From the NCBI RefSeq assembly GCF_024345975.1, contig NZ_JAGQCD010000003.1, forward strand, positions 1-64,000: DNA of 64,000 bases, in the 5' to 3' direction. The position numbers were made by a program, and so were the translations under genes. The notes below the pieces were generated by a model that searched no databases, was not told the DNA's origin, and worked only from the letters and a program-made list of their open reading frames with translations. Position 1 is the first letter of the stretch. Each line of letters starts with the position of its first letter. Positions 36,097 through 63,543 of this stretch are shown here, piece by piece. The DNA is from Cyanobium sp. Cruz-8D1 (GTDB taxonomy: Bacteria > Cyanobacteriota > Cyanobacteriia > PCC-6307 > Cyanobiaceae).

Positions 36097-36753
36097 ATGA
36101 AGTTCAGGCTCATCCAATCGAACAATCGAGGACTTGTTACCCGAGCGGGAGATCGGACCTACGCTCGCAGCGGCCCAGCAAAGGGGGAGGAAGACTGGAA
36201 GCTGCCAACTCTGTTCATCTGGTCGAACAAGCCCACGCGTCTCGTGGCTCGCTGCTGGACCCGCTGGACAGGAGAGAAGCTCGAACGTGACTTCATCTAT
36301 GAGGTGACGCGCTTTCGAGACGTCATTGATCTTCAAGGTGACACCCGCTTTCACCAGTGGTGCTCTCAGCAGCTGCGGCTGCAAATGTGGGAGATGACAG
36401 AGCCAGTTGTGGATGTGAGCCAGCACTGCTGCCCTGAGCCCGAGGCCGTTCATGAGCCTAACCGCTTGAAGACGGCGCAATATCTCGAGCGAAGAAAAAC
36501 ACGGCTGAGAGCCCAGACACCTTTGCTGACAGAGGAAGAAAAAGAAATTATTTCAGATCTCTATCAACTCAGGGACTCGCTCAATCAGGCCGCAGGCCAT
36601 ATCGCCTATCACGTTGACCACATCAAGCCGCTGGCGCTCGGAGGGCAGCATCACCCAAGCAACTTGAGAGTGACAACCTCTCGCGAAAACATGACCAAAG
36701 GAGCGAAAGACTATGAGTTGCCGCCTCCTGGGCAGCCTGTGATCGCTGGCTAG
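36097..36753 (+). CDS. HNH endonuclease next to BREX
   Basis: A 218-residue protein starting MKFRLIQSNNRGLVTRAGDR. The C-terminal HNH motif is YHVDHIKPLALGGQHHPSNL then RVTTSRENMTKG: His-Val-Asp-His, N in SNL, and a final N/K. The first 120 residues are a separate, perhaps DNA- or modification-recognising, domain. The gene faces brxA and overlaps its end by four bases. It may be a BREX accessory or independent restriction gene. Confidence 0.7.
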   Translation: MKFRLIQSNNRGLVTRAGDRTYARSGPAKGEEDWKLPTLFIWSNKPTRLVARCWTRWTGEKLERDFIYEVTRFRDVIDLQGDTRFHQWCSQQLRLQMWEMTEPVVDVSQHCCPEPEAVHEPNRLKTAQYLERRKTRLRAQTPLLTEEEKEIISDLYQLRDSLNQAAGHIAYHVDHIKPLALGGQHHPSNLRVTTSRENMTKGAKDYELPPPGQPVIAG

Positions 36754-39523: not shown

Positions 39524-42348
39524 CAGGCTGAAGCGGGTGCCAGGGACACCAGCTGCAGCAGCGTGAGCGAGGGCAGGGTTTCCTGGCGCCGCTGGAACTC
39601 CTGCCGCCCCTGCTGCTCCTCCTGCTGCAGCTGGGCGCGGCGGAAGTCGCGAACCTGGGGCAGTCCCAGCTGCTCGATCGCGCGCTGCCGGGCCGAGAAG
39701 GCCAGCTCCTGCTTGCGGCGCTCGCGCTCCAGCTTCTGCTGGTGTTTGGCCTGGAGCTCATCGAAGAGCGGCCTGCCCTGCTGCTGGGCCTGCTGGTGAC
39801 TGCGGTCGTAGGCCTGAGCTGCCTCTGCAGGCGAGAGCTGAGCCTCTGCCAGGAGCTGCAGCCCACCTTCGAGGCTGATCAGCCGCTCCCAGATCAGGCG
39901 GGCCGTGGGCTCCAGCAGCTTGCCCTCGCTGGAGAGGAAGAGCGGCAGCATGCGTTGGCTGCGGCCCTCGCTGGTTTGCACAGCGACCCGCCAGAGCGAC
40001 CAGATCCCCGACACCTTGCCGGCGAGTTCGGGAAGGTGCAACACCGGCACGGTCATGCCCGGGGCCCTGGGGGGCAAGGCTGCCGTGAGGGCGCGCAGCC
40101 TCGGCTCCTCGAGGCTGAGGTGGACCAGACCTGCCTCTTTGGCGCTCTGCCGGCTGAAGGTGGCCCTGAGGTCGCGGTGGCCATCGGGCCAGTGCAGATC
40201 CAGGCCACCAGCAGGGTTGGGCCGCACCTGCCCACCGGCCTCGGCCTGGGTCTGTAGCCAGGAGAGGGTCATGCGCTCGGTCCAGAAGGGCATCAGATGG
40301 CCGGCCACGCGCTGGGCGGCCTGGGGATCGAGCTCCTCGGAGCTGGAGAGCAGGGAGGCCCCCTCATGGGCAGACAGGGCCCGGGCGCGGATCGCCTCGG
40401 CGAGCGCCGCTGCCCGCGCTTCCGCCTCTTCTGGCGTCAGAACGGCGTTGACATAGAGCTGCTGGAAGTCGAGACCGTTTTCTTCCGAATCGAGCACATC
40501 GGAGAGCTTGTCGACGCCGAACTCCTGCAGGATCCGCTCCAGCTTTTCCTCCAGCACCTCACGCACCCGCAGCTCGACGGTGTCTTCCAGAGCAAAGTTG
40601 AGAGCCCGCACGATGTGTGTCTGGCCGATGCGATCCACCCGACCGATGCGCTGCTCCAGCTTCATCGGATTCCAGGGCAGGTCGTAGTTGATGATCACGT
40701 GGCAGAACTGCAGGTTCAGACCTTCGCCGCCGGCGTCGGTGGAGATCAGGATCTGGGCCTCGTTGGCGAAGGCCCGCTGGGCGCTCTTGCGCTCCTCCAG
40801 GTTCATGGAGCCGTTGAGCACCACGACCGGATAACCACGCTGCTCCAACACCTCCGCCAGCATCTGCTGGGTGGGCACGAACTCGGTGAACAGCAGCACC
40901 TTGAGGGCTGGGTCGTTCTCGTCTCGCTGCAGCTGCTGAATCGTGTCGAGCAGAGCCTGGGCTTTGACGTCGAGACCCCGGGCCTCACAGCGGCGGGCGG
41001 CGGAGAGCAGTAGCTCCACCTCGGCCCGTTCGTTCTTGAGCTCCTTGAGGCGGCTGTTCAGCAGCGTTTCGAGTTGCTCCTGCCCCTCCAGCTCAGCCCA
41101 GTCCTCGCCCACGTCTTCCCCAAACAGCGTGAGCTGGCCGGTGGGCAGCTCCAGCACCTGCAGGCGCCGCTCCAGGGCGGTGCGTATGGCAGCGGTACTG
41201 GAGGTGACCAGCCGCTGCATCAGGATCATCAGGAAGCCAACGGCGGGCTGCTTGTCACGCAGGGCTTGGTTGTAGCCCTCGCGCACGTACTCGGTGACGG
41301 CGTCGTAGAGGACCCGCTGCTCCAGCCGGGCGCTGTCCCAGGCGACGGAGACGATCTGGGTGTGACGCGGCTGAAACAGGGGCTCTCCCTTGTCGTTGAT
41401 GGCCCGGCGCTTTTCGGTGCGGATCACGTAAGGGGCGACGTTCTCCCGGGTGACCGAGCTGTCGTCGGGGAGGGCATCGGGATCGAGGAAGCCGAGCAGA
41501 CGGCGGAAGGCATCGGTCTTCCCTTGATGCGGGGTGGCGGAGAGGAGCAGCAGGTAGGGAGAGGCCTGGGCGAGCCCTTCACCGAGTCGGAAGCGGGCCA
41601 CAGTTTCTGTGGAGCCGCCGAGGCGATGGGCCTCGTCGATCACCACCAGATCCCAGCCGGCGTTGATCAGGTCGTCGAAACGCTCGCGGTTGTAGCGGGC
41701 CACCTGCTCCGCACTCCAGCCGCGGCGAGAGTCCATCGGCTTGACCGAATCAAGGGTGCAGACCACCTGGTTGTGCTGCTTCCAGAGGTTTTCTTCGGGG
41801 CCGACACCGAGCAGCTGGCGCCAAGCGCCGAAGTTGCCGGGCTGGACGAGGTGAAAGGTTTCATTGAAGTGGGTGTCGAGCTCGCTGACCCACTGGCTGA
41901 CCAGACCGGCAGGAGCCACCACGAGAAACCGCTTGGCCAGGCCGCGGACCTTGAGCTCACGAATGATCAGGCCCGCCTCAATCGTTTTGCCCAGGCCAAC
42001 CTCATCGGCGAGGAGATAGCGGACCCGATCTCCTGCCATGGCGCGCTGGAGCGCCTGGAGCTGGTGCGGTAGGGGGATGACGGAACCCTCCAGTGGTGCG
42101 ACCAGGGCGTCGTGCTCAAAGGCATCGAGGATGCGAGCCGCAGCGGCCACAAAGCTGAGCTGCTCGAGGCTGGTGGGGCTGGCCTGCTCCAGGGTCTGCA
42201 GCCGCGCAACAGGGAGACGGACCACAGCGTCTCGGCGGGACAGCCAGATCTGGGCTGTGGGGATGCCCCAGAGGTCTTCCACGGCGATCACCCGGCAGGG
42301 CTCGCCGTGATCCAGCGAGTGACACCAGTCGCCGGCCGCGAAGCTCAT
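39523..42348 (-). CDS. brxHII: BREX helicase BrxHII (Snf2/HepA-like)
   Basis: A 941-residue helicase. DEVGLGKTIEAGLI (motif I, about residue 112), VIDEAHRLGG (motif II, about 236), SATPHQGKTDAF (motif III), and the C-terminal motor with GEGLNLQFCHVIINYDLPWN and RIGRVDRIGQTH (about 560-570). A long helical C-terminal part follows. This Snf2-type translocase defines type 3 and type 5 BREX. It overlaps pglX by ATGA. Confidence 0.85.
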   Translation of the reverse strand: MSFAAGDWCHSLDHGEPCRVIAVEDLWGIPTAQIWLSRRDAVVRLPVARLQTLEQASPTSLEQLSFVAAAARILDAFEHDALVAPLEGSVIPLPHQLQALQRAMAGDRVRYLLADEVGLGKTIEAGLIIRELKVRGLAKRFLVVAPAGLVSQWVSELDTHFNETFHLVQPGNFGAWRQLLGVGPEENLWKQHNQVVCTLDSVKPMDSRRGWSAEQVARYNRERFDDLINAGWDLVVIDEAHRLGGSTETVARFRLGEGLAQASPYLLLLSATPHQGKTDAFRRLLGFLDPDALPDDSSVTRENVAPYVIRTEKRRAINDKGEPLFQPRHTQIVSVAWDSARLEQRVLYDAVTEYVREGYNQALRDKQPAVGFLMILMQRLVTSSTAAIRTALERRLQVLELPTGQLTLFGEDVGEDWAELEGQEQLETLLNSRLKELKNERAEVELLLSAARRCEARGLDVKAQALLDTIQQLQRDENDPALKVLLFTEFVPTQQMLAEVLEQRGYPVVVLNGSMNLEERKSAQRAFANEAQILISTDAGGEGLNLQFCHVIINYDLPWNPMKLEQRIGRVDRIGQTHIVRALNFALEDTVELRVREVLEEKLERILQEFGVDKLSDVLDSEENGLDFQQLYVNAVLTPEEAEARAAALAEAIRARALSAHEGASLLSSSEELDPQAAQRVAGHLMPFWTERMTLSWLQTQAEAGGQVRPNPAGGLDLHWPDGHRDLRATFSRQSAKEAGLVHLSLEEPRLRALTAALPPRAPGMTVPVLHLPELAGKVSGIWSLWRVAVQTSEGRSQRMLPLFLSSEGKLLEPTARLIWERLISLEGGLQLLAEAQLSPAEAAQAYDRSHQQAQQQGRPLFDELQAKHQQKLERERRKQELAFSARQRAIEQLGLPQVRDFRRAQLQQEEQQGRQEFQRRQETLPSLTLLQLVSLAPASA

Positions 42349-45152
42349 GCGTCGTCGCCCAACCGGGTCTGGGCGTTGTCGATGTACATGAGGAGCTTCT
42401 CGTCCTCCTGCAGCACCGCCTCTGGGAGCTTGGCCGCCACCTTGACGATGGTGGCGTAATCCCGCTCCTGCCAGCAGGCCTTGAAGCCGGCCCGCACGGC
42501 TTCCGTGCGGAACTGCTTGATGCGGCGCTGACTGCTCTCTTTGATTTCTTCGAACTCCTTGAGCAGGGCGCGTTCGCGGATCTGATCGAGATCGGCCTGC
42601 TTGTTGGGATCTGGAACGTACCAGCGGTCTCGGGCCTTCTCGATGAGTCTGGAATCTTCTTTGTCGAGATTCCGGTGATCTTTGAAGTTGGTGGAGAGAT
42701 AGCTGTGGATCTGGCTCGGCACTGGGCCGCGTCCGTCGTAATGCAGAAAGTTCTGCTCAAGGATCACCTTGAGCTCTACGGTCTGCTCGTGCTTGGCCCA
42801 GGCCTGAAGCTCGCGCATGAATTGCGGTTGCAGATCCTGGAAGCTCTGCGGCTTGTCCTGCAGCTGCTGCCGGATCCACTGAATCGCACTGTGCTCATCG
42901 TTGACAAAGAAGCTGAGCTGGCGCAGCTGTGTAGCGGTGGTGCGTTTGCGGTCGTATTCCGTGACCTGATCTGGCAGGAAGTACATGCCATCTCTTTCAG
43001 GGAAGCGTTGCTGAAGACCCTGCAGAAACTCCGGACCAGAAAGAGGCACGCTGATGCCGTGCTGGACATGGAAGGCGATCATGCGATCCAGCAACATTTG
43101 AGGCGTTCGCTCAACCACAAGTTCGACTTCATTGGAACGACCAACGAACACTGGAACGTTATGAAGATGCTCGCGTACGAAGGCCCAAGCCCCATCAGCA
43201 GATGATTGTCCGATCTCGAAGCGTTGCCGCAGAGCTTCAGTAGGCTTGTAGGCGGATATCACCAGATCCTGCTTCACTGCAGAGCTTGTGACCTGCCGAT
43301 AGGATCCTTGTTGCTTGTCAAGCGTCCGCACGTCGGCAACTACAAACCCTGCTGCACCCATTGCCTCCTGAATGGCTCGCCAAATCCCGTTACTCGAGTT
43401 ACTAAAAACAACTGTCATCCAGCGACCTGGCTTCAGGACCCTGCCGTACTCCTCAAAGCAGCGACGCATAAGCGCTTGATAATCCGGCACTTTCTTTTGC
43501 TTGGCTTGGTCAACAATTGCTTCGCTGCCAGCAAAGGTAGTCACTCCATGCCAGGATTCAACAAGAAAGTTGAGATCCGCGTAGTATATATTTTCCCCGA
43601 ACGGTGGATCCGTAAAGATATAGTCTACTGAATTATTCTTGATGCCGATTGCGGCACAGGTTCCCGTTTGAACCATGGCTGCCCCTGAAGCAACTGGAGT
43701 CGGGGCAAAGCATTTAACAATTCGATCAACCTTGGTATTTCGCTTATGCTCATCAGCAAGTATGTACCATGGGCTTAATTCGGCGGTCTGCGACGCGACA
43801 TAATACACCCCGGTGAGACTTTGCCCAACCTGTGAATATCCTGTAGGCCTGTATCGGTTTAGCACCGACATCGACCATATCGCCTGTTCGGCAAACCACA
43901 GAAGCGCCCTGCGAGTACCTAGGTCCCTGACCTCATTCGCCTTTCTCCAAACCGCAGCCAAAGAATGAATGGCACGAGGGAGAAATAGGTGATGAGTTCT
44001 GGTAAACCCCTTCGGCTGCAATCGCGAACCGTGATACATCTCCCCAATTGGGAAAGGCAGGCTAGCAACATCAGGTGGATATGCTAGGGCATCAATTCTC
44101 GCGAGAATACCAAGATCGGCCTCGGTTACTGGCCTCTCACAAGTTCTCGCGCCAATATTATAGTTTATAAATACAGGCTTGAGGGCGATCCTCTTCCAAG
44201 TCTCTTTTGTGACGGGATCAACGCGAGTCTCGAAAGTTCGCTCGAGCTTGTCCTTGTTAAGATGAGAGCTGCAATGCGGACAAGGAAAGGAGTCCCGCGT
44301 CTTTTTGGTAGCCAGGTCGAGAGCTTCTTCGATAAAGTTTACCTCTCCAGCGCACTCAGGACATGTAAAGACCTCGCTCCACACCGTGAAGTTAATCCTT
44401 CCCTTGGCATTGCTTTCCGAGTGAGGCACGTCATACATCCAGCCAAGATCAGAATCAACCTCATCCAGAATCCGTTGAGCTTCTCTCTCAAAAGCTGCCG
44501 GATCAAAGGGAAGATTGTACCCGGCCGAGATGAAAGATGCTGCCGGTCCAAGGTCATTTAGGACTACTCGTCGTACGCCCCATTCGGGCGGTTCATGGCC
44601 TTCCACTTGCCAAAGCGCCTCAAGTTCCTGGCGGTACGCCAGGGGGGCAGTCCCACACCACTGAGCCGCAAGACCTGTCATCCCTGATCCACAAAAACCA
44701 TCCAGGACGATGTCCCCAGGCTTGGTGTAGTGCAAGATCGAGGGGACGATCGCTAAGTGGGGAACCTTGGTGTGATAACCGTGTGCCTTGTAGAGCTGAT
44801 TAGTTTTCCCGACACTCACATCAACGGCGAATGGCTCCCGCTCATAGACCTCATCCGGGTCATATGGCTTGCCATTGCAGCGGACAAAGTCTTCCAGGAA
44901 GGGATTTGGGCAGGCGGTGTAATACGGCGGATCCGACATCCGCAGGATTGCTTCATCGCTGCCTTGAGGGAAGCCCGGTGTTTTACGAAACTCCGGGTCC
45001 TGCAGCTTGTCCTTCAGAAGCGCCAGGAAGTGTTCCCGCCGCGCCTGATCGTTCTCGAAGGTGAGGCCGAGGCATTCCACCGGACCGCTTTGCCCTCTCT
45101 CTTGCTGAAGCTCCAGGGTGCCTTGCTGTTCCTGTTCTGTGGTGCTTGGCAT
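42345..45152 (-). CDS. pglX: BREX DNA methyltransferase PglXI (adenine-type)
   Basis: A 935-residue methyltransferase. Motif IV-like SDPPYYTACPNPF is at about 73-85, motif I DGFCGSGMTG at about 151-160, zinc-type cysteines CPEC and CPHC near 270-300, and a second TDPPFGENIYYADLN near 515-530. This double-DPPY, zinc-containing layout is the DUF1156-type PglXI of type 3 BREX, which marks host DNA. The middle of the gene (about 43,200-44,900) is visibly AT-richer than both ends, a sign of recombination in the central part. Confidence 0.85.
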   Translation of the reverse strand: MPSTTEQEQQGTLELQQERGQSGPVECLGLTFENDQARREHFLALLKDKLQDPEFRKTPGFPQGSDEAILRMSDPPYYTACPNPFLEDFVRCNGKPYDPDEVYEREPFAVDVSVGKTNQLYKAHGYHTKVPHLAIVPSILHYTKPGDIVLDGFCGSGMTGLAAQWCGTAPLAYRQELEALWQVEGHEPPEWGVRRVVLNDLGPAASFISAGYNLPFDPAAFEREAQRILDEVDSDLGWMYDVPHSESNAKGRINFTVWSEVFTCPECAGEVNFIEEALDLATKKTRDSFPCPHCSSHLNKDKLERTFETRVDPVTKETWKRIALKPVFINYNIGARTCERPVTEADLGILARIDALAYPPDVASLPFPIGEMYHGSRLQPKGFTRTHHLFLPRAIHSLAAVWRKANEVRDLGTRRALLWFAEQAIWSMSVLNRYRPTGYSQVGQSLTGVYYVASQTAELSPWYILADEHKRNTKVDRIVKCFAPTPVASGAAMVQTGTCAAIGIKNNSVDYIFTDPPFGENIYYADLNFLVESWHGVTTFAGSEAIVDQAKQKKVPDYQALMRRCFEEYGRVLKPGRWMTVVFSNSSNGIWRAIQEAMGAAGFVVADVRTLDKQQGSYRQVTSSAVKQDLVISAYKPTEALRQRFEIGQSSADGAWAFVREHLHNVPVFVGRSNEVELVVERTPQMLLDRMIAFHVQHGISVPLSGPEFLQGLQQRFPERDGMYFLPDQVTEYDRKRTTATQLRQLSFFVNDEHSAIQWIRQQLQDKPQSFQDLQPQFMRELQAWAKHEQTVELKVILEQNFLHYDGRGPVPSQIHSYLSTNFKDHRNLDKEDSRLIEKARDRWYVPDPNKQADLDQIRERALLKEFEEIKESSQRRIKQFRTEAVRAGFKACWQERDYATIVKVAAKLPEAVLQEDEKLLMYIDNAQTRLGDDA

Positions 45153-45387
45153 GGCTGCAGTGTTGAAAGCGGTGGGTTGTCGGCTTGGCTGGATGACCAG
45201 AGGCGTGTGTTCAGACGTGGCCTTGAGCTGGTGAAGTGCCTCGTCGCAGGTGGCTCATTGGCGCTGCTCCACTTGCTCGGTGACATGCGCGGTCACATGG
45301 CCGGTGACTTGCTCGGTCACTCAGGCTGAGGGCCCAGCCTGCTTTGCAGCTGCCCTGGCTGATATGTGTAGTCGGTACTGGCATCAC
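45153..45387. other. Gap inside BREX operon with 12-bp CGGTNAC repeats
   Basis: This is the only sizeable gap inside the operon. At about 45,269-45,320 four 12-bp units alternate CGGTGAC and CGGTCAC. On the minus strand they can be read as a 21-codon frame (GTG at 45320 to a stop at 45255) giving VTEQVTGHVTAHVTEQVEQR plus one residue. It could be a regulatory repeat or a mini-peptide. Confidence 0.4.
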
Positions 45388-48300
45388 CTACTCCAGAACC
45401 AGACGGACCTTGGCCTTGTCCTTGCCCTTGGTGCGCTCGTTCAGGTAGTCGGCAAAACGGTCCTTCAGCTCGTCGAGGGTGCAGGGCAGCCCGCCCGAGG
45501 TCAGAGCCGAGCGCAGTTGGTCCTCTGTGAGCACCACCTTCTCCAGGCCCTGGAGCACCTCCTGAAGGGCCTTCAGTAGGGCCGGTTCAATCGGCTCCGG
45601 TAGTTCGCGGCTCGCGATAAGTTGCTTCAACGCTGCCTTACCGCTGCTGTCGGTGACGAGCTGCACGTTGTCGCTCACCGTTGGGTCTTCCAGGTTGCTG
45701 AGCAGCCGCTGGCACCAGTCGGCCCCCAGGCTGTCGAGCCGTTCATCCAGTGAGCTGATGAGCTGCGTTGGCTTGGTGGTCGCCGCCGCGGGCTCTTCCG
45801 CTGGGCGGAACTGGCAGTGTGGGCAGACGGGGCTTTGCTCCAGATCGGGACGTCCCAGGCTGAAGCAGGTCTTGAGACCGAACAACCTGTTCTGGAAGTC
45901 CTGCAGCTGTTGGGCGGGCATCATCTCGACCTTGGCCAGCTGCTGCAGCTGCTTCAGGCGCGGGTCCTGGGTGAGCCGCACCTTGCGCTGATCATCGGCT
46001 TGGTTCAGGCGAGCCTTGGCGTGACGGTCGAGGTAGTTGTCCTGATAGGTGGCTTTCAGCTGGGCCAGGCTCTGGCCGAGCTGGCGTTGGAAGTTGGCAT
46101 CGGCGCGGTGCTTGGGGCTGGTGATCTTGGCCAGAAACTCACGTTTCTGGACGGCAACACCCTGAACCCAGGCGTCATCAGAAGGGAGCACCGCCTCAGC
46201 CGTGCCCAGGTAAGCAGTCAGCGGGCCCACATGCTGCACAAGGCTGAGCAGCTCACCGACCTCGCGGACCAAGGCCAACGGCTGCTTCTGGCCGGTGATG
46301 ACCTCAGCGGTATGCGGGAAGTTCTTCAGCTTGCCGGCGGAGTTGAAGGGCTGCAGTGACTCGAGAAACTTCTGGAGGTTCTGCAGCGCCGCCAGCCACT
46401 CGCCCTGTTCCTGTTCGGAGAGCAGGGGCCTCCCCCAAAGGGCGAGATCGGCCAGTTGCCCTTGAGCAGTGACGACCTTTTCCACCAAGGAGGCCACCGT
46501 GCTCTGCAGCTGGGCAACCGCCTCGTCCCGCTTCGCTGCGTTGGCGATCAGGCCGGGCGGCAGGTTGATCAGCTCGAACAGCTCCTTGAGCGGCCCCAGG
46601 GGCAGATCCCGGGGGCGCTCCACATGCTTGAACTGCAGCAGATCTTTGACGCTGGTCTTGCCAAACAGGTCGATCTCACTGGCATCGATCTTCTTGCCGG
46701 TGATGCTCAGGACCAGGTCACCGCTGTGCACCAGGGCGGCGAGTACCACGACCAGGAACTCCGGCTCCAGCCGGAACCGCGTCCAGTACTCAATTCCCGC
46801 CTCCTCCCCGACCAGCTCTGAACGGTTCAGAACTTGGCCTTCACCTTTGTCGGTGAGCTGTTTCAGCGCCTGCTTGGCGTAGCGCGAATCCCTGGGGCGG
46901 AGCTGGTCACCATCCAGCAGCTCCAAGGCATCGAGCACCGAGGCCCCGAGCTTGCCCTTCACACTGCCCGCGATCCAGCGCAAAGCGTCCTGGGCCGCTT
47001 GCTCCCGGTTGTCGCGGGTGATCGTGGTGGTGAACACCGGGTAATCCGGGCACTGGTTCTCGAAGCAGGCAGAGAGACAGGAGGCAGCGGCTGCATCCAC
47101 CGCATCCTTCACGCCGCCTCGATCGCCTGAGCGGGCCAGACCGCCCTTGAGGCGTTCCCCCAGCAGCTGCGCAGTGCCCTGGTGGGTGACCTCACAGCAG
47201 CTGGACAGGTTCTGCTGCAACCACTGCGTGAGGGAACGCAGCTGCTGCATCGCCTTGTCCTCGTAGATTTTCTTGTTGCTGCCCGAGGCGGTGAGCGCCA
47301 TCTCGCGCGCCCCGGCGTAGAGCTTCACCGCGGAATGGAAGCTGGCGTCATCGCCAGGCTTCAGCCGGAAGAACACTTCATCGGCCTTCCGCTCGTCCTT
47401 GAAGTACGGCGGCTCGTAGGGCTGCAGGAAGTAGAGATAGAAATCCCGGGGCGGCTGAGCAGTGGAGCGCTCATTCGGCGCCCCAAAGAACAAGTAGCCG
47501 CTGCGGCCGGCGCGGTGCTCCCGCCACTCCAGTTCGTGCTCCCAGATGCGATAGCCGCTGACATAAGCCGGCGCGTCCGGTTCTTCGAGAATCACTCGGC
47601 GCAGGGCATCAAAGTAGTATTCATCGAGCTTGCTGTCATCAAGGGTTTCGGCTCTCTTGTCAATCAGCGAGTCGAAGTCGATGTCTTTCTTGAGATCAAG
47701 ATAGTATTGACCATTCTCTGGATTAAACGACAGGAATTGGCCGCTGACCGTTTTCAGGATCTCGCGCAGAACGGTTTCAACGGTTGACTTGAGGAAGTCT
47801 GCGTCCTGTTCCGGAAGTGGAAGCAGCAGGCAGAGATCATCGCGGAGCTCTTCTGCCGTAGCACCCATCGGTGTGAAGATGTCACCGGTTGTCAGCCGAT
47901 GAACGGAGAGGGCATGAATGATCCTCAGGGCAGCTGGCCTGTACTGCGGCCTTGTGAAGGCCTGCTGAATGCGTGCCTCCAGCACGTCACTTTTATCGAT
48001 GACGTCGCGGATGTCCGGGACTGAGCGGAAGGAGGGGTTGTCCTTCAGCGTCTGCCAGTAGGAATCGTAGGCGATCAACCCTGGATCATCACCAGGTACC
48101 TCCTCATCCAAAAGAGAGCGGATGGCCGCACTGAGGGTTTTGAGGACTTCCCGCTTTTCGGCCGCGTAGACCCGCTCAAAGGTGTCGAGATAAGCGGGAT
48201 GAACCGGGTAGAGGCGGACGAATTCCTCCAGCCGCTCATTCATCGTGGCGTACAGCTGGGTAAAGCCCTGCAAGTGCTCACGCACCAAGGCCTGCTGTTT

Positions 48301-49089
48301 GCTGTCCTTCTTCAGTATGCGCTGTGCCACGACGTAGGCCACGTCTTCACGAGCGATGCGCATCTGCTCAAAGCGATCCTTGACGCGCCGCAAGCTGTCG
48401 GCAGCAAACTGGAAGTGGGGATTGTCGAACAGGCTTTCCTGGACCCCGCCGATGAAGCGGAAGCGTGAACCCTTGCAGAACTCCCCGATGGCACGCAGGA
48501 AGTTGAGGTTCCGCATCAGCTCTTGCTCTCGGTTCGAGCGCAGGTAGTCGAGCAGCTCGTCGAGAACAAACAACAGGCCCTTGTCAGGGAAGACCTTGGT
48601 GAACTCCGCCATCATCGCGGCGAAGACCTCCTTGTGGTTTTTGACCTGATCCTCGGGTGGGATCTCGAAATGGACCCCGCGTTCCGCCAATGCTTCCTGA
48701 AGGCTCTCCAGAACAAATTGTCGGAGCGACATTGAGGAGTTGATCTCGGCGCGGATGACGACAAACTGTCCCGCAATCTTCTCCGCCGCCTTGGCGACAG
48801 CAGGGTTTGTCAGCTTCTCTGCCAGTTCAGCCTTCTCGGCTACCGCGGAGATCACCGCTAACTGGTGCGACTTACCTGTTCCGTAGTTGCCGACAACCAG
48901 GAGACCTTTGTTATCCGCAGGCTCCTGGAACTGAAGCTGCTGGAAGATCACACTCTCCAGCTGCTCACCCATGCGATCAGAGATCACAAAGGTCTGCACC
49001 AGCCTGAGCGCTTGGTCATTGCGTTCAGCTTCGTTGAGCTGAACAACCGTTTCGATCGGATCAAACTGAATCAGGTCGGAATATTTCAT
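45388..49089 (-). CDS. brxC: BREX ATPase BrxC (DUF6079/PglY-like)
   Basis: A 1,233-residue AAA+ ATPase. The start MKYSDLIQFDPIETVVQLNE is 5 bp after the brxF stop (an upstream in-frame GTG at 49119 would overlap brxF). Walker A is VGNYGTGKSHQL (about 66-77), Walker B LLFVLDELLDYL, followed by sensor-like RFRFIGGVQESLFD. The later half is helical with a CPHC-type zinc pair near the end (VCPHCQFRPAEEPAA). BrxC is the large core ATPase of BREX. Intact. Confidence 0.9.
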   Translation of the reverse strand: MKYSDLIQFDPIETVVQLNEAERNDQALRLVQTFVISDRMGEQLESVIFQQLQFQEPADNKGLLVVGNYGTGKSHQLAVISAVAEKAELAEKLTNPAVAKAAEKIAGQFVVIRAEINSSMSLRQFVLESLQEALAERGVHFEIPPEDQVKNHKEVFAAMMAEFTKVFPDKGLLFVLDELLDYLRSNREQELMRNLNFLRAIGEFCKGSRFRFIGGVQESLFDNPHFQFAADSLRRVKDRFEQMRIAREDVAYVVAQRILKKDSKQQALVREHLQGFTQLYATMNERLEEFVRLYPVHPAYLDTFERVYAAEKREVLKTLSAAIRSLLDEEVPGDDPGLIAYDSYWQTLKDNPSFRSVPDIRDVIDKSDVLEARIQQAFTRPQYRPAALRIIHALSVHRLTTGDIFTPMGATAEELRDDLCLLLPLPEQDADFLKSTVETVLREILKTVSGQFLSFNPENGQYYLDLKKDIDFDSLIDKRAETLDDSKLDEYYFDALRRVILEEPDAPAYVSGYRIWEHELEWREHRAGRSGYLFFGAPNERSTAQPPRDFYLYFLQPYEPPYFKDERKADEVFFRLKPGDDASFHSAVKLYAGAREMALTASGSNKKIYEDKAMQQLRSLTQWLQQNLSSCCEVTHQGTAQLLGERLKGGLARSGDRGGVKDAVDAAAASCLSACFENQCPDYPVFTTTITRDNREQAAQDALRWIAGSVKGKLGASVLDALELLDGDQLRPRDSRYAKQALKQLTDKGEGQVLNRSELVGEEAGIEYWTRFRLEPEFLVVVLAALVHSGDLVLSITGKKIDASEIDLFGKTSVKDLLQFKHVERPRDLPLGPLKELFELINLPPGLIANAAKRDEAVAQLQSTVASLVEKVVTAQGQLADLALWGRPLLSEQEQGEWLAALQNLQKFLESLQPFNSAGKLKNFPHTAEVITGQKQPLALVREVGELLSLVQHVGPLTAYLGTAEAVLPSDDAWVQGVAVQKREFLAKITSPKHRADANFQRQLGQSLAQLKATYQDNYLDRHAKARLNQADDQRKVRLTQDPRLKQLQQLAKVEMMPAQQLQDFQNRLFGLKTCFSLGRPDLEQSPVCPHCQFRPAEEPAAATTKPTQLISSLDERLDSLGADWCQRLLSNLEDPTVSDNVQLVTDSSGKAALKQLIASRELPEPIEPALLKALQEVLQGLEKVVLTEDQLRSALTSGGLPCTLDELKDRFADYLNERTKGKDKAKVRLVLE

Positions 49090-49093
49090 GTCT

Positions 49094-49582
49094 TCATGCT
49101 CCTGCGAGGCAGTGACCATTGGCGGTCACGATCTGAACATCCTTGACATCGAGGCGTCGATACTCTGGGTGGTCAGGCGAGCCGTAGATGAGTTTCCCAG
49201 CGACGACCTCCCCTTGCCAGGCTGCGATGACGGTGTGATTCCTAGATGCTCGTTGGAGCGCCAGCATCGGCTCTTGCTGCAGGGCAGGGTGAAAGAGCAG
49301 GCCAATATTGTCCAGCATGGTTACCGTTTGATTGCCCTGCTCTTCGATTAAGTCCCTGACAATGTCTGCTGTGCGCAGTCGTCTTTGTTTGCTTGTGAGA
49401 TCCAGCAGGCGCTCGGAAAGAACTTTGTTGAGGTTCAGCAGGCTCCAACCCCTGGCTACTTGGAGCTCGTTGAAAGCGATGGTTTTTCCACTCCCTGGGG
49501 GACCGGCTACCACGACCAAGCGGTAGAAGCTCTTTGCTGCCAGCTCAGCCTGCTCAGCGATGGCACGGGCCAGGTCTCTCAT
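49094..49582 (-). CDS. brxF: BREX small ATPase BrxF
   Basis: A 162-residue P-loop protein: VVVAGPPGSGKTIAFNEL (about residues 24-41), later TVTMLDNIGLLFHPAL (Walker B-like) and ASRNHTVIAAWQGEVVAG (sensor). BrxF marks type 3 BREX and is the first gene of the operon. The start ATG 49582 has an AT-poor upstream region; the promoter should lie in 49583-49708 but no clear -10/-35 pair is seen. Confidence 0.8.
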   Translation of the reverse strand: MRDLARAIAEQAELAAKSFYRLVVVAGPPGSGKTIAFNELQVARGWSLLNLNKVLSERLLDLTSKQRRLRTADIVRDLIEEQGNQTVTMLDNIGLLFHPALQQEPMLALQRASRNHTVIAAWQGEVVAGKLIYGSPDHPEYRRLDVKDVQIVTANGHCLAGA

Positions 49583-56798: not shown

Positions 56799-57767
56799 CT
56801 ACTGCTGGACGAGAAACGCCTCAATCCAGTCGTGGTGGCACTTCTGGTTGATCCGATCGGCGATCGTCACCGCCTCTTCGGGCACTTGGAACCGCTTGCG
56901 GAAGGCCCGGGTGAGGCTTTCCAGCTGGGGCCGGGGGAGAGCCCGCAGGGTGCTGTGGAGGTGCTGGATCGTCTCGGCATCGAGGGCCACCTGGCCGGGG
57001 TCGGCCGGGGCTGATGGCGGTTGCGTCGGGGCCGGGGATGCTGCGACGGAAGAGGGATTCCCCGCCGCCGGCCGACTCAGAGGAGATCGCTGCCCGCCTG
57101 GCCGCTGGGCTCCATCACCCTGGCCCGCTGCGCTGCTGATCTGCCGCTGCGATTTGTCATAGAGGGCAAGGCCAAACGGGTTCCCGAAAGTCATCAATGC
57201 CCGCTTCATGGCATCGGTCTCGGCTTCCTTGAGGGCGGATTCATGGGCCTGGCCCAGGTCCACGTCGATGCCGTGGCCGGCGCCGCTGCCCTCGCGAACC
57301 AGGGGTGTCAGGCCACCGGCGGTGACGGTGACGCGCACACGAGCGGTGTAGGTGACGCCCCAGCCAGGCTTCTGGTCCCGGCCAATGGATCGCTCGGCCT
57401 GGGCCACGCAGCGGACGGCGATGGTCTGACGCTGCCAGCCGTCGAAACCAAAGATGCGGTTCGCTTCCGCGATCACCTGCCAACCCTCGAGATAGCTCAC
57501 GCGGCTGCGGCCCTGCTCCCGCTGGCGGACGTTGGCCCGATCCAGGGGGGCGGAAAGAGCGGCGAGCTGCTCGGGGGAGAAGCCGGAAGGCGGAGCCTGG
57601 GGGGCCTCGGGTGCCGAGGCTGGTGCTTGCTCTGGTGCTGCAGCGTTCCCAGTGCGATCAGCGGAGCGGATCAGCTCCAGGGCCGATGGCGGCCTCTGGC
57701 TGGGTCGAGCAGCAGCGGGCCGGCTGGTGGTGCTGGCCCCGTTGGCGGAAGGAGCGGCGACGGTCAT
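56799..57767 (-). CDS. Rad52-like single-strand annealing recombinase
   Basis: A 322-residue protein. Residues about 62-200 match the Rad52/22 domain: GFSPEQLAALSAPLDRANVR, SYLEGWQVIAEANRIFGFDG, RVRVTVTAGGLTPLVREGSG, ESALKEAETDAMKRALMTFG. Such phage annealases pair complementary single strands and support replication and recombination. The N-terminus and the linker after 215 are disordered; the last 60 residues are helical. It is downstream of the Gp157-like gene. Confidence 0.85.
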   Translation of the reverse strand: MTVAAPSANGASTTSRPAAARPSQRPPSALELIRSADRTGNAAAPEQAPASAPEAPQAPPSGFSPEQLAALSAPLDRANVRQREQGRSRVSYLEGWQVIAEANRIFGFDGWQRQTIAVRCVAQAERSIGRDQKPGWGVTYTARVRVTVTAGGLTPLVREGSGAGHGIDVDLGQAHESALKEAETDAMKRALMTFGNPFGLALYDKSQRQISSAAGQGDGAQRPGGQRSPLSRPAAGNPSSVAASPAPTQPPSAPADPGQVALDAETIQHLHSTLRALPRPQLESLTRAFRKRFQVPEEAVTIADRINQKCHHDWIEAFLVQQ

Positions 57768-57852: not shown

Positions 57853-58473
57853 TCAGCAGATGCGCCAGGAGCGGCGGGAGAGGAGCTGGGCGCCGGTGAT
57901 CTGGCGGCCGGCCTTGAGGGCGTCCTTGATGGCGGCTTTGTCCGGCTTGCTGGTGGTGGTGACAGTGAGCCACTCGGAATCGAGGGCCTGCTCGTCGTCG
58001 ATCACGACGGCAGCGGACTTGCGGCTGCTGATCTCGTGATTGGGGAAGGAGAAGCGGGTTGAGCTGGGCTGCAGCTGGGTGAGGACGAACACCAGCGACT
58101 CCTCGAGCGCATCGGCCCGCGAGGCATCGGAGCGGGCCAGATCGGTGAGGCGCTTGGCCTGCTGCTGGCGGTAGGCGGCCTGGCCGCGCAGATGCTCGAT
58201 CACCCAGCAGGTGGCATCGGCTTTGGCGGCGAGGGCCTGCTTGTTGCCCTCCTCGGCGAGCAGGGCAGCCTCCAGTTCGGCGAGGGCTGAGGCGCGTTGA
58301 TCAGGGTCATCAGTTTCCAGCTGCTCAGCCAGCTGGCCGATGGCGGTGGTGAGCTCCTGGGCCTCGATCCCCAGCTGCCAGAGCGAGCCTGATCGCTGCA
58401 GGGAGCAGGAAGGCCCGGCGGCCTGCGGGAGAGCCGGGGTGAGAGGAGCGATGGGGGCGGTGAGAACGGCCAT
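57853..58473 (-). CDS. Siphovirus Gp157-like protein
   Basis: A 206-residue protein. The core, LEAALLAEEGNKQALAAKAD, ATCWVIEHLRGQAAYRQQQA, KRLTDLARSDASRADALEES, then STRFSFPNHEISSRKSAAVV, follows the Gp157 pattern of a helical coil and a C-terminal beta part that ends KDALKAGRQITGAQLLSRRS. Gp157 proteins are found next to phage recombinases and have been linked to phage resistance in Streptococcus. It is in line with the Rad52-like gene. Confidence 0.7.
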   Translation of the reverse strand: MAVLTAPIAPLTPALPQAAGPSCSLQRSGSLWQLGIEAQELTTAIGQLAEQLETDDPDQRASALAELEAALLAEEGNKQALAAKADATCWVIEHLRGQAAYRQQQAKRLTDLARSDASRADALEESLVFVLTQLQPSSTRFSFPNHEISSRKSAAVVIDDEQALDSEWLTVTTTSKPDKAAIKDALKAGRQITGAQLLSRRSWRIC

Positions 58474-58524: not shown

Positions 58525-59046
58525 TCAGGCGGCGAGGGGCTCCGGCGAGAAGGGCGGCGGCACTTCCATCACCACCACCGGCACCGGCGAACGGGAGGAG
58601 CAGCGACGGGCCTGCTGCACCAGAGAGGCCGTGCCTGCCCCACCGGGGAAGGCGATCACCAGCACCGAAGCGCTGAATGCCGGGGAGGTGTGGGCCTGGG
58701 CCTCGACCAGGGCCTGCTCCAGCAGAAGGCGATTGCGGATTGGCCCGGCAGCGCGGCCATGACGGCGCCAATCAGCGGCGAGGGCCTGGACCCGCCAGCC
58801 GAGCTGCTGGGCGGCACGGCCGATGGCACGATCCGCACCACGGGCACCGCCATGCAGCAACAGATGGACAGGCCGGCCGCCAGAGCGCTGGAGGAGAGCA
58901 GAGGCGATGCGCTCCTGGGGCCAGACGAGATCACGGCCACCAGCGGCAACGATGACGACCGAGCGATGGGCCAACGCCGGCGGCGGCAGGAGGCCAAGGG
59001 AAGGCAATGCAGCGGCCTGGGCCACTGCAGCAGAGAACAAGCTCAT
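58525..59046 (-). CDS. YpsA/SLOG-like nucleotide-binding protein (DUF2493-like)
   Basis: A 173-residue Rossmann-type protein: VVIVAAGGRDLVWPQERIAS, VHLLLHGGARGADRAIGRAA (the G-G-A-x-G-A-D signature), ADWRRHGRAAGPIRNRLLLE (D-W...G...R-N) and LVIAFPGGAGTASLVQQARR. It matches the phage YspA/DUF2493 branch of the SLOG superfamily, which binds nucleotides such as NAD or ADP-ribose derivatives. First gene of the recombination group on this strand. Confidence 0.75.
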   Translation of the reverse strand: MSLFSAAVAQAAALPSLGLLPPPALAHRSVVIVAAGGRDLVWPQERIASALLQRSGGRPVHLLLHGGARGADRAIGRAAQQLGWRVQALAADWRRHGRAAGPIRNRLLLEQALVEAQAHTSPAFSASVLVIAFPGGAGTASLVQQARRCSSRSPVPVVVMEVPPPFSPEPLAA

Positions 59047-59482: not shown

Positions 59483-59869
59483 TCAGCCCCAGGGAACGTC
59501 CAGGAACTCCACCAGCAGCACGCCCCGGTGGGTGCCGTGAATCCTGACCAGGCCCGCTTTGGCGGCCTGCTCCATCCCGGCCTGTTCCTTGCGCACCTGC
59601 TCGGCGCTGGCCAGCACCCGCACCCAGCCGCCGGTCATGAAGTCCTCGCCGCCCGTCTCAAAGGCCTGGAGTCGTCGGTGGTGGTTGCTGTTGCGCTCGT
59701 AGTACAAGCCCCCGCCGGTGGGGTCGGTCCCCTCTGCCCAGACCTGATCAACCATGAGCTTTCCGATCGCCAGCGGATCCTGGGCTGCGGCATCGATCGC
59801 GTCGCCGTCGAGCACCAACGGGTTGCCTGGGTCGTCGCGGTTGTCAGAAACGATGAGCCGTGTGGCCAC
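59483..59869 (-). CDS. Hypothetical protein at the island edge
   Basis: A 128-residue protein starting MATRLIVSDNRDDPGNPLVL, with IGKLMVDQVWAEGTDPTGGG and GLVRIHGTHRGVLLVEFLDV. Looks folded (alpha/beta). It is the last clear gene before the tRNA, where excisionase or integrase genes are often found; it resembles neither. Function unknown. Confidence 0.5.
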   Translation of the reverse strand: MATRLIVSDNRDDPGNPLVLDGDAIDAAAQDPLAIGKLMVDQVWAEGTDPTGGGLYYERNSNHHRRLQAFETGGEDFMTGGWVRVLASAEQVRKEQAGMEQAAKAGLVRIHGTHRGVLLVEFLDVPWG

Positions 59870-60002
59870 GAACTTTCAGATGTTGAAGCCTCACTCTCAA
59901 TCCACTTTTTCATCAGGGCAAAACTGCACCCCCCCCTGCTGGGCCAATGAAGAGGGCTGGAGCCTCGTGCACAGATCAGGGGTGGAGCTGACGGGTTGGC
60001 GT

Positions 60003-60151
60003 GCAAGAGATTGCAAGAGATCGACCAGGACTGCTGGGGATCCAACCCAGGGTCCGCTGCGCAGGCGGGCGCTCGACCGCTGCGCAAGAGGGACTCACGC
60101 CGGCACGAGATGCCAGGCCTGGAGCGCCTTTCTCTTGCACTTTCTCTTGCA
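60003..60151. repeat. GCAAGAGA direct and inverted repeats beside the tRNA (candidate att arm sites)
   Basis: GCAAGAGA occurs at 60003-60010 and 60013-60020, a variant GCAAGAGG at 60084-60091, and the inverse TCTCTTGC at 60131-60138 and 60143-60150. This array lies within 200 bp of the tRNA 3' end. Tyrosine-recombinase elements have such arm-type sites next to attachment sites. No integrase is seen in the island part of the window. Confidence 0.5.
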
Positions 60152-60156
60152 GCCAA

Positions 60157-60190
60157 GAAAAAAGGGTTCCCGGCATCGCCGAGAACCCTT
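60157..60190 (-). terminator. Intrinsic terminator after tRNA-Pro
   Basis: AAGGGTTC (60162-60169) and GAACCCTT (60183-60190) form a stem; read on the minus strand it is followed by a run of six or seven T. It lies 12 bp after the tRNA 3' end. Confidence 0.8.
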
Positions 60191-60201
60191 GCTGTGACTA
60201 G

Positions 60202-60275
60202 TCGGGGCGACAGGATTCGAACCTGCGACCTAGTGCTCCCAAAGCACCCGCGCTACCAAGCTGCGCCACGCCCCG
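60202..60275 (-). tRNA. tRNA-Pro (anticodon TGG)
   Basis: A full cloverleaf on the minus strand: acceptor CGGGGCG / CGCCCCG (7 bp), D-arm with GCGCAGCTTGGTAGCGC, anticodon loop TTTGGGA giving anticodon TGG, and T-arm with GGTTCGAATCC. The discriminator base is A and CCA is not encoded. It reads proline codons. The phage island lies on its 3' side, the usual insertion side. Confidence 0.95.
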
Positions 60276-60735
60276 GTAGACAAATCCTAATTCACCGACC
60301 AGCAACCCGGCTGGTGGCCAAAATTGAGGCCAGGCCTGATGTCTGGTCTCCGGCCTCAAATTGCTGTGAGGCTGCGCGAACGTTCCTGATCGGTCGGAAC
60401 CTAGTCATTTGGGGCGCGGTTAGTTCGCATCCTGTGCCCTCTATCACACATGGCGAAGCCTGGGAGCTGGGCCTGAGGTTGACGGATCGAACCACGACCG
60501 GCCTCTGGCTGGGCCGTGGTCATTGCTGGTGCGCAGGTCTCGCCGGCCATTCGACTGGGGGACGCCAGCAGGTGGCCTCGATCACGACCTGGGTCGGCTA
60601 TATTTTGGCCTTAATCCTTGTAGGGCACGGTCGAAGCAGGGCTGCGGCTGCTGGCCGAGCCGGCTGGGCCATCAGCCCGATCGAGGTTCCGCCCCTGGGC
60701 AGCGGGCCTGGAGCAGCCGCTGCGATCGGCACCGA

Positions 60736-60940
60736 CCTCTAGCGCCTGCAGGGCTGGGTGGAACTGCGCAAGTGCCTGGCGGAATGAGCAGAGCGCGCAG
60801 TGTTGTACCCGTTCCGCCATAGCAACAGCCTGGATGCCACCAGCTGGGGGTGAAGAACGCCGCAAGTGTGGCGCTGAGCATGGGGCACTCCTTGGAGGTG
60901 CACCTGCGCAACTGCTGCCGCTTCACCTGTGAACAGGGCC
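60736..60940 (+). pseudogene. Remnant of tyrosine recombinase (integrase)
   Basis: One frame reads LQGWVELRKCLAE, a stop, then VLYPFRHSNSLDATSWG and another stop. After a one-base shift comes VKNAASVALSMGHSLEVHLR. The F-R-H-S-x-S box and the S-M-G-H-S-x-x-V-H box match the C-terminal catalytic part (RHxxx and GHS) of phage-type tyrosine recombinases, but stop codons and a frameshift kill it and the tyrosine is lost. It marks an older or excised integration event at this tRNA. Confidence 0.6.
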
Positions 60941-61109: not shown

Positions 61110-61250
61110 TGCGCGAAACCGGCTCTGCTGCAACCGATCTCGATCTGATCAGCTTCCTCAAGGCGATCCCCGACGTGCGGATGCGGCGTGGGATTCGTAT
61201 CCCCGCCTGGTATCTGTTGCTCATCTTCCCATCACTCACCTGACGGCTCG
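61110..61250 (+). pseudogene. Fragment of transposase N-terminus (ISAs1-like)
   Basis: The frame encodes LDLISFLKAIPDVRMRRGIR then IPAWYLLLIFPSLT and a stop. This resembles the start of ISAs1-type transposases (I-P-D-x-R...R-G...Y-P-L-W). Too short to be active. Confidence 0.4.
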
Positions 61251-61440
61251 AGGCCGCCTTTTCCCCATCGCTCACTACCGCAGCTCTTAACCACAGCAGC
61301 ATGGGGTGGTTTGGAGCCTGCCCCTGCAGGCCGGCTCCGGGAGGCCACACTCCCATCCTCGATGTAGTTGCGTCAGTGCTCATAAAGAACATTTGACTCG
61401 TGGCACAAGTAGGCGAAGCCTTCTCGAAGAGGAGGAGTAG

Positions 61441-61785: not shown

Positions 61786-63013
61786 GAACCTCTGATCAAG
61801 ACGGCTTAGCTCTTAGAATCTAGTCTCATTCTCCTCAATGAGACGACAATGAGCAGATTTTGCCCGGTTTTCGCTCACAGCAGTCCCTGCAGCGACGTTC
61901 GGGCAATTTCTACCATGCGTTTTGCTTGATGTCTGGATGATTATCGATCTTTTGACACACTAAGCCCTTGTATCACGCTGGATCAGGTAGTCGTTCCCGT
62001 ACCATCCAGAGATTGGCCAGGGCAAAGAGCAACTTCAGCTTGAGATCGTTCTTGCGGATACCTCGGTAGAAGACCTTCCGGAATCCGAACTGACATTTGA
62101 TGATCCGAAAGGGATGCTCCACTTTGGCGCGGAAGTGGGCTTTCGCCGTCTCAATCAGATCCAGAAGCCTGCCCTCTGGTGTCTCTGGAAGCACTCTGCG
62201 TTGGCCGGGCTTCATGGCAATCCTGAGCTCTGCTTGGCAGTCTTGGAACTCGTTTCGTTTCTCGATGCCGATGTGGCCAGCATCGCCGTAGATGAGGCTC
62301 TCATCCCCATGGAGCCGCTCAGCTGCTGTATTCAGCTCATGCACGTTAGCCGCGGTGCTCACCACGGAGTGGACCAAGCCAGATGCGGCATCAACGCCGA
62401 TGTGGCAACGCATCCCAAAAAACCACTGCTTGCCCTTGGCGACCGAATGCATTTCAGGATCCCTCTCCTTGCGCTTGTTCTTGGTGGAACTGGGGGCATT
62501 GATGATCGTGGCATCAAGGATCGTGCCTTCCCGCAGCATTACTCCCCTGTCGCTCAGCATCTGGTTCACACCCTCAAGGATCTGCTCCGCGATCCGGTGC
62601 TCTTCCAGCAGATGGCGGAAGTTGAGGATCGTGGTCTCATCAGGGATCCGGCCATCCATCGTTTCGATTCCGGCGAAGCGGCGGAAGCAGGGCGTATCGA
62701 TCAGCATCTCCTCCATCAGGGGGTCTGAAAGCGTGAACCATTGCTGTAGCAGGTGGATCCGCAGCATCACCTCCAAAGGAATCGACGGGCGACCTCCCTT
62801 GCTGGACGGCTTGTGATACACGGGCTTGATCAAGGCCAGAAACGCTTCCCAAGGAACCGTGATCTCCATCTCATCCAAGAAGCGCTGGCGACGCGTTCGC
62901 TTTTTGGCGTAGATCTGCTCGTAGTCCGAAAAGCCCAGCTGGAGGGGGTCGGCCATCCGTTCCAGTCTCAGTCTTGGATCTGGATTGATTTTAGCGGGTT
63001 TTTCAGGGGTTCC
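61786..63013 (-). mobile_element. IS5-family insertion sequence
   Basis: About 1,228 bp. The ends match as inverted repeats: GGAACCTCTGA at 61786-61796 and TCAGGGGTTCC at 63003-63013 (one mismatch). TTAA flanks both sides (61782-61785 and 63014-63017), a likely 4-bp target duplication. It holds one intact transposase gene, so the element looks recent and possibly active. It sits between chromosomal folB and the decayed integrase/transposase zone. Confidence 0.8.
61973..62956 (-). CDS. IS5-family transposase
   Basis: A 327-residue DDE transposase. N-terminal DUF772-like part: KPSSKGGRPSIPLEVMLRIH then LLQQWFTLSDPLMEEMLIDT. Catalytic residues: D in REGTILDATIINAPSSTKNK, D in DESLIYGDAGHIGIEKRNEF, and E in HFRAKVEHPFRIIKCQFGF (the usual Y/H-x2-R/K-x3-EHPFR end). 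Full length and in frame. Confidence 0.9.
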   Translation of the reverse strand: MADPLQLGFSDYEQIYAKKRTRRQRFLDEMEITVPWEAFLALIKPVYHKPSSKGGRPSIPLEVMLRIHLLQQWFTLSDPLMEEMLIDTPCFRRFAGIETMDGRIPDETTILNFRHLLEEHRIAEQILEGVNQMLSDRGVMLREGTILDATIINAPSSTKNKRKERDPEMHSVAKGKQWFFGMRCHIGVDAASGLVHSVVSTAANVHELNTAAERLHGDESLIYGDAGHIGIEKRNEFQDCQAELRIAMKPGQRRVLPETPEGRLLDLIETAKAHFRAKVEHPFRIIKCQFGFRKVFYRGIRKNDLKLKLLFALANLWMVRERLPDPA

Positions 63014-63174: not shown

Positions 63175-63543
63175 TTACGGGCTACCCCAGCGCCGCCGCC
63201 GGCTCACGGCCACGCTGCCGTCGAAGCCGGGAACCGGCACCTGGCACTTGCTGAGTTCCAGCGCCAGGGGGATCGGCCCGTAGCAGGCTTCCAGGGCATC
63301 GAGGATGCGCTCGCTGTAGTGCTCCAGGGTGAGGCAGCGGAGGGTGCGGGCCTGCTGCTGCAGCGCCGCGATGCCGCGGCCGTAGTCGAAGCCTTGGCTG
63401 AGGTCGTCGCTGCGAGCCACCGCACCCAGATCCGCCCCCAGGGAGAAGGCCAGCTCGAACCACTGGCCGTGCAGCCGTTCCTGCTCGTACACGCCCACGT
63501 GGGCCCAGAGGCGCAGGCCGCGCACATGGATCGCCTCGTTCAC
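63175..63543 (-). CDS. folB: Dihydroneopterin aldolase
   Basis: A 122-residue enzyme of folate synthesis that splits 7,8-dihydroneopterin into 6-hydroxymethyl-dihydropterin and glycolaldehyde. Family marks: [20 protein letters not shown] at the N-terminus, [29 protein letters not shown] and the pterin-binding strand [12 protein letters not shown]. Octameric in cytoplasm. It overlaps proA by ATGA and is cotranscribed with it. Ordinary chromosomal gene. Confidence 0.9.

Follow-up and report, generated by a model that had tools for sequence, protein, structure and literature searches.

Probable cyanosiphovirus-like prophage at the tRNA-Pro(TGG) gene of a Cyanobium genome, with short repeat pairs that differ among elements sharing one attachment core

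Lambda/L5-type integration and serial tRNA islands are already known. For L5/Boilgate-like mycobacteriophages the published account describes a tyrosine integrase, a 30–45 bp core from the 3′ half of a tRNA, a tRNA rebuilt at one junction (PMC10865867), and putative arm-type pairs on both sides of the core (PMC10865867), all of which recur at the locus reported here. One published arm-binding domain, which reads arm sites, is described as three strands plus a helix (PMC8138268). Lysogeny has been called rare in unicellular cyanobacteria, in a source that lists two freshwater Synechococcus strains with prophages (PMC6157547), and isolates of marine Synechococcus and Prochlorococcus have been said to lack intact prophages (PMC8776855). 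We analyzed a stretch of 64,000 nucleotides (the window; contig C32:1-64000) of a Cyanobium genome of 3.97 Mb in 108 contigs. We consider it likely (probability roughly 0.8) that positions 1-60201 are the major part of a ~68-kb cyanosiphovirus-like prophage that integrated in the lambda/L5 manner at tRNA-Pro(TGG), with the short repeats at its right end as arm sites.

Phage genes span positions 117 to 33568, followed by a defence cassette and an end module:

117-1556, minus strand: helicase
1865-4579, plus strand: primase
6778-8478, plus strand: terminase
11393-12988, plus strand: portal
14718-15614, plus strand: scaffold
18491-19408, plus strand: head protein
22910-23923, plus strand: tail-fibre-like gene
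32765-33568, minus strand: endolysin
36750-49119, minus strand: BREX cassette inside the prophage (BrxA, PglZ, BrxHI, PglX, BrxC; PADLOC profiles)
56799-57767, minus strand: Rad52-like single-strand annealing protein, end module
57853-58473, minus strand: Siphovirus Gp157-like protein, end module
58525-59046, minus strand: YAcAr (SLOG-related) protein, end module
59483-59869, minus strand: 128-aa end-module protein with no assigned function

Matches to the portal in the phage collection were limited to the cyanosiphoviruses PSS2, S-CBS2, and S-CRES1-3 (8 records, 29%–33%). The terminase and the head protein also had cyanosiphoviruses as their best matches, with many phages of other hosts matching too. 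No tape-measure gene was recognized among the scanned proteins, and the tail genes were mostly without a PHROGs match. The BREX cassette, in which the PglX open frame (42345-45152) encodes 935 aa, is a case of an anti-phage defence system carried by a phage. The G+C content drops to 0.448 at ~9001-11000, in the terminase–portal interval, versus ~0.65–0.70 around it, and this stretch is possibly a late insert in the prophage. The Rad52-like/Gp157-like/YAcAr module is found in the window and at five further places on contigs C31, C38, and C62 (six in the genome), and the only second copy of the 128-aa protein is on C62, which adds an integrase, an antirepressor, and an antitoxin-like gene (the latter below the curated cut-off). 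C62 also carries (L012; 886-1965 and 3078-6977) a D1-like gene by sequence, which we take to belong to photosystem II, near an end module that has an integrase piece; a related start of such a gene is seen at the right end of C31.

The right end of the element and its proposed left counterpart comprise the following features:

60002-60021, plus strand: far arm-type pair (putative), TGCAAGAGAT twice with period 10, inverted relative to the near pair
60084-60091, plus strand: GCAAGAGG, a lone imperfect repeat copy
60128-60151, minus strand: near arm-type pair (putative), CTTTCTCTTGCA twice as read on the plus strand, period 12
60162-60190, minus strand: hairpin and T run, putative element-supplied terminator of tRNA-Pro
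60201-60275, minus strand: whole tRNA-Pro(TGG) gene, proposed attR of the prophage
60202-60245, minus strand: attachment core, 44 bp of the tRNA 3′ half
60680-60912, plus strand: dead C-terminal fragment of a tyrosine integrase belonging to the same family
63175-63543, minus strand: folB, right host flank
C62:7177-7220: proposed attL of the window element, a 44-bp perfect core copy followed by an intact lambda-like integrase

Both repeat pairs sit in the interval that separates the 3′ end of tRNA-Pro from the last island gene (59483-59869). The initial annotation had counted five attachment-like repeats there, three direct and two inverted. Two direct copies of GCAAGAGA (60003-60010 and 60013-60020) and two inverted ones (60131-60138 and 60143-60150) are exact, but the supposed third direct copy, GCAAGAGG, is a 7/8 match. 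The window holds five exact copies in total, a number that chance alone could give (3.1 expected; 23 of 100 shuffles had at least five), but four of the five cluster at 60003-60150. The repeats are real, but they are most likely arm-type integrase sites rather than cores. We ruled out duplicated attachment cores because the core is the 3′ half of the tRNA and the words differ among elements that have this same core. A decayed second tRNA at ~60024-60095, guessed by eye, had no Rfam listing at E up to 10.

The initial annotation had suggested looking for a duplicated tRNA-Pro 3′ end left of base 1. We found three extra perfect copies of this 3′ half, 44–50 bp long (C31:21902-21951, C38:7500-7544, and C62:7177-7220), each beside an intact integrase gene (22140-23315, 6114-7313, and 7404-8681, respectively). 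Contig C32 begins at base 1 of the window, so its own sequence does not extend further left; the ends of C31, C38, C62, and the C32 start showed no overlaps, and C62 and C32 are unjoined in the assembly. In two relatives, C62:7174-13959 and then the start of C32 are collinear: the C62 part stops at 7651 in G027, where C32:1-6341 starts at 8145, and at 7308 in G002, where C32:1-1200 starts at 8628; beyond that stretch G002 differs. This synteny places the C62 copy left of base 1 as anticipated, across an unsequenced gap. The most likely course of the element is from C62:7177 across a gap of ~0.5–1.3 kb and through the window to tRNA-Pro, giving by collinearity with G027 and G002 a length of ~68 kb; window positions 1-60201 would then most likely be the larger part of this prophage, with its left end on C62. 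The arm word on C62 matches that of the window at 18 of 20 letters (23 other left ends, 11–14), and the integrase-side words of C31 and C38 do not fit that of the window (13 of 20 letters each).

We used a 111-bp query covering the tRNA region to look at the same site in relatives. All 60 relatives matched, 36 of them of the same genus, with matches listed down to E ~2.6e-10; a search of 201 family genomes gave a match in 170. After core matches shorter than 39 letters or below 90% identity were dropped from the genus set, the fetched stretches of the own genome and the genus contained 67 copies: 23 full, 42 of the 3′ half, and two of the 5′ half. Copies of the 3′ half were present in at least 23 of 37 genomes (own plus 36 of the genus), a lower bound because some of the listed copies were not fetched. 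A recombinase ORF was found on the expected side of 33 of the 42 3′-half copies; the nine copies without one include broken genes and contig ends. To the right of a full or 5′-half tRNA, folB lay within 5 kb in eight of 20 genomes; of the other 12, some stop at contig breaks, but G004 is an example that lacks folB there.

One relative, G018, looks like an empty site. It has no 3′-half copy among the matches listed and keeps a P450-like gene, tRNA-Pro, and folB together, the first ending 2.2 kb left of the tRNA and folB beginning 1.4 kb right of it. The tandem pair is absent from G018, which has a single GTCCAACC word within a hairpin; by eye, the hairpin at the terminator position in G018 differs from that of the window. 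In G006 and G008 the P450-like gene (91%–95% identical) is found outside the outermost core, separated from the full tRNA by 117 kb and 9.4 kb, respectively, and in G023 it is likewise beyond the element. The comparison with an island-free relative that the initial annotation had suggested thus shows left-hand neighbors that differ between relatives (G018 vs. G006 and G008), rather than the same genes everywhere with no duplicate. Together with the 3′-half copies, this bears out the earlier view of the tRNA as a repeated integration site, and the copies and the synteny of relatives support its placement of the right boundary of the island at tRNA-Pro. In the window's genome the P450-like gene starts 357 bases from the first base of contig C67, as expected if a stack of elements lies between C67 and C32, a plausible arrangement.

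Several relatives have less regular arrangements. In G020, two tRNA-Pro halves lie in opposite orientation (C1:900416-934455; L061–L062), with type-A arm pairs (see below) and end-module genes on their facing sides; this may be either an inverted segment or two half elements. Copies of the 5′ half instead of the 3′ half were seen in G023 (C1:134407-177762; L066–L068) and G014 (C27:31255-31296; L092). In G023 the integrase end carries the whole tRNA, and the 5′ half adjoins folB, so in this element type the tRNA is rebuilt from the other side. In Prochlorococcus G254 (C2:1-46000; L265–L267), a full tRNA at 854 is followed by tRNA-Pro halves at 2156, 16361, 23286, and 30114 and more diverged halves to ~45.9 kb, a long stack of small elements.

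On the folB side, the stretch 60680-60912 had been read as a decayed tyrosine recombinase, and rightly so: it is 57%–84% identical, in two frames, to integrases and integrase pieces of its own genome, has in-frame stops and one frame change, and lacks the Tyr from its expected place. Its best matches are the integrase pieces adjoining Rad52 genes on C31 and C62, and it may be what is left of an older element that lay on the folB side. We rejected a relic of a G023-like insertion, as no tRNA 5′ half was found beyond the remnant (best, 18 of 32 letters). When the tRNA–folB stretch was compared with the right flanks of full or 5′-half sites in relatives, no blastn match started before folB. This interval, 2.9 kb in the window (a transposase and its surroundings) versus 30–76 bp in G012 and G026, holds a group II intron fragment at 61238-61354 (Rfam group-II-D1D4-2, 114.8 bits) and a transposase gene (DDE_Tnp_1, DUF772) at 61973-62956.

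Around the tRNA-Pro copies of both Cyanobium-group and Prochlorococcus genomes, tandem pairs of 9- to 12-bp words with a period of 11–12 bp recur at near-fixed positions. On the left of the core most lie at about −45 to −85, and on the right at about +90 to +135. In the own genome and its relatives, a perfect 9-bp tandem with a period of 11–12 bp was found in 41 of 62 left flanks versus one of 257 controls, and to the right of 23 of 41 3′-half copies versus three of 199 controls; control windows were 0.6–1.8 kb away, and the test windows were set after the first sites had been viewed. A looser pair scan was positive at 51 of 63 sites versus 765 of 3000 random windows, and 22 of 63 flanks had no tandem on either side or only ones that could be due to chance. 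A far inverted pair did not hold up as a general feature: an automatic test, which misses the window itself because of word register, found it in nine of 39 left flanks (0.8 expected), mostly of type A. All nine type-A left ends have a pair resembling the far pair of the window.

We grouped the arm words into types: A, TCTCTTGCA (the window); B, ATCTCTCCC; C, TTGCCCACA; D, TTTGCTCAC; E, TTTGGGCAC; F, TTTGTGCTCA; G, GTCCAACC; and others. In an integrase tree of 34 sequences and one piece, types A to F each form one side of a well-supported branch (with two members each for C, E, and F), and the 13 labels need 12 changes, the minimum possible, versus 24.7 in shuffles. The right pair adjoins the integrase gene, so this match of word and clade could be plain co-inheritance. 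Comparing the left and right ends of each element is a stronger test. We defined whole elements as neighboring cores in the same orientation on the same contig (n = 23), dropping core matches below 85% identity, full-length matches below 90% (paralogous tRNAs), and core pairs less than 600 bp apart. An element's own ends agreed at 15.9 of 20 letters versus 12.9 of 20 for crossed ends, with none of 20,000 permutations reaching the observed sum, and 13 of the 23 elements agreed at 15 letters or more. These 23 are not independent, since three agreeing elements (in G254, G257, and G258) share TATACCAC. The ten without agreement comprise five in G254 and one each in G257, G004, G020, G023, and G024. 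The G020 case, beside the inverted core, is a real mismatch with clear but different words at its two ends; in G023, CAGCTCTCA pairs are present at both ends with spacings of 10 and 11 bp, and the ungapped test missed their agreement because the spacing differs.

At cellular junctions with one word per side, the same word never occurred twice (zero of 24; 2.8 expected, 827 of 20,000 shuffles as low). In a few of the 24 (e.g., G028) only one copy supports a word, and the count leaves out G023 and junctions where either side has more than one word or none. This is a modest sign that two elements of the same code may not stay side by side. We offer only tentatively the broader idea of an address code, in which arm words and the arm-binding domain would co-diversify, each integrase would excise only its own element, and same-code neighbors would not occur.

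We then considered the integrases themselves, in an alignment of 42 sequences (three of 45, with stops, were dropped) whose first row is 99% identical to the C62 enzyme. R264, K284, Y358, R361, and H385 are invariant, and Y394 is present in at least 90%; by the lambda family we presume these to be the catalytic residues, with Tyr replacing the first His. The predicted model (mean pLDDT of 84.5; pTM of 0.48, a weak domain arrangement) shows a helix (residues 10–31), three strands, and a helix (together residues 10–88), then core-binding and catalytic parts, which in the model matches the layout of an N-terminal arm-binding domain. The best match among solved structures is full-length lambda integrase (E 3e-5; TM 0.33, for a flexible protein). 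A PF00589 search of the own genome missed these integrases. Between types A, B, and D, residues 33–92 are 40%–46% identical versus 69%–72% for the catalytic part, and within these types identity is 85%–92%. N-terminal parts often evolve faster, so the divergence of the arm domain is suggestive only.

An unlikely reading of the pairs is that they are sites for an excisionase or for a regulator of the integrase gene, sites that would likewise be found at each end and vary from element to element; the right-hand pair, between the core and the start of the integrase, is in a possible place for an operator. This reading sits poorly with arm words that track the integrase clade and with the modeled arm-binding layout of the N-terminal domain, and pairs at such places in L5-like phages are called putative arm-type integrase sites in the source describing them (PMC10865867).

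Viral contigs pointed the same way as the arm-site reading. We checked the sequence before the integrase at 16 of 33 related loci in viral contigs; it was too short at three, had no tRNA-Pro core at five, and had one at eight. In three of these eight (L291, L292, and L310) identical words flank the core, as would be predicted for attP, and these three are candidate attP sites of free phages, attP-like in sequence; L292 and L310 have one word in common, and in L310 the core and arms are directly readable, with more ORFs on both sides. The other five (L280, L281, L282, L289, and L293) have differing words across the core, as in stacked integrated elements.

In the wider family (139 loci found, 80 named loci kept), a tRNA-Pro core lay 123–328 bp before the match in 41 of 78 loci with enough upstream sequence, 33 of them with a tandem pair, and was absent upstream in 37. 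A tRNA was present in 21 of 25 scanned loci (23 of the 25 without a tRNA-Pro core), a short distance ahead of the integrase on the plus strand: Arg(TCT) in 10, Gly(TCC) in five, Gly(CCC) in four, and Val(TAC) in two. Such non-Pro loci (L170, L172, L178, L195, L200, and others) have tandem words of their own, e.g., TTCTCACAT. The integrases at Arg, Gly, and Val tRNAs suggest that the family has switched its target tRNA. Prochlorococcus members (30% identity) use the tRNA-Pro site, with the word TATACCAC.

Duplicated cores, an empty-looking site, core-adjacent integrases, matching end pairs, and attP-like contigs are all seen in these sequences, and from them we infer binding of the repeats by the integrase, an exact exchange point, control of direction, and surviving excision. 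The C62:7404-8681 integrase would recombine phage attP with tRNA-Pro. Given that the 3′ halves begin at tRNA position 27–35 (query 52–60) and one 5′-half copy ends at query 68, the exchange is bracketed near the anticodon loop; the phage would bring a new 3′ half, so that the tRNA at 60201-60275 stays whole (attR), and the displaced 3′ half would remain at the opposite end (attL, C62:7177-7220). The N-terminal arm-binding domain would bind the GCAAGAGA pairs at 60128-60151 and 60002-60021 and the pair between core and integrase on C62, and the bound pairs would tell the integrase the ends of its own element and the direction of action. The restored tRNA could be hit again, yielding stacks with one core and different arm words.

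That such stacks arose mainly by homologous recombination between end modules or tRNA copies, not by serial site-specific integration, we regard as improbable. The YAcAr–Gp157–Rad52 module, present six times in the genome with the window included, and the inverted core of G020, where the same arm word flanks one segment, fit that origin, but elements free of the module (e.g., G252, G253, and Prochlorococcus) have the same att layout, and the junctions are cut exactly at the core. There is very little room for chance or unrelated short repeats beside a tRNA that merely borders a variable region: GCAAGAGA is short and no more frequent in the window than by chance, but the flank controls, the end agreement, and the attP-like viral contigs stand against it.

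If lambda/L5-type integration is correct, a prophage with its main head genes and matching attachment ends is present in a Cyanobium-group genome, and the tRNA-Pro attachment site is a hotspot common to Cyanobium through Prochlorococcus. One shared core with diversified arm words is the less expected part, intact prophages being called rare in this group. The arm pairs provide a simple sequence rule for true element ends, fragmented assemblies included, and the integrases would form a natural set with one core and many arm specificities. The portions of the literature searched did not mention arm words for picocyanobacterial elements; a report of them may exist.

Among known systems, PSS2, S-CBS2, and S-CRES1-3 share portal, terminase, and head protein matches with the window element and differ in the integrase: at E 1e-5, that of C62 matched nothing in the phage collection. 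Picocyanobacterial integrases at tRNA-Phe and tRNA-Cys are described as divergent tyrosine integrases beside specific tRNAs, in groups that follow the tRNA (PMC10187409); they use other tRNAs, and we liken them by that description (PMC10187409). Prochlorococcus tycheposons are likewise described as tyrosine recombinase elements with a tRNA border (PMC10872708, PMC10187409), and Prochlorococcus tRNA-Pro halves carry relatives of the C62 integrase, whereas the window element bears head, packaging, and lysis genes, as a prophage would. Phage lambda provides the best full-length structural match and an N-terminal arm-binding layout as described for it (PMC8138268), but identity is 14%–16% and the core of the window element is a tRNA half. 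The L5/Boilgate-like phages, which share the tRNA-half core and the paired arm sites, infect unrelated hosts, and their published description discusses one phage per attB (PMC10865867), in contrast to the stacks found here.
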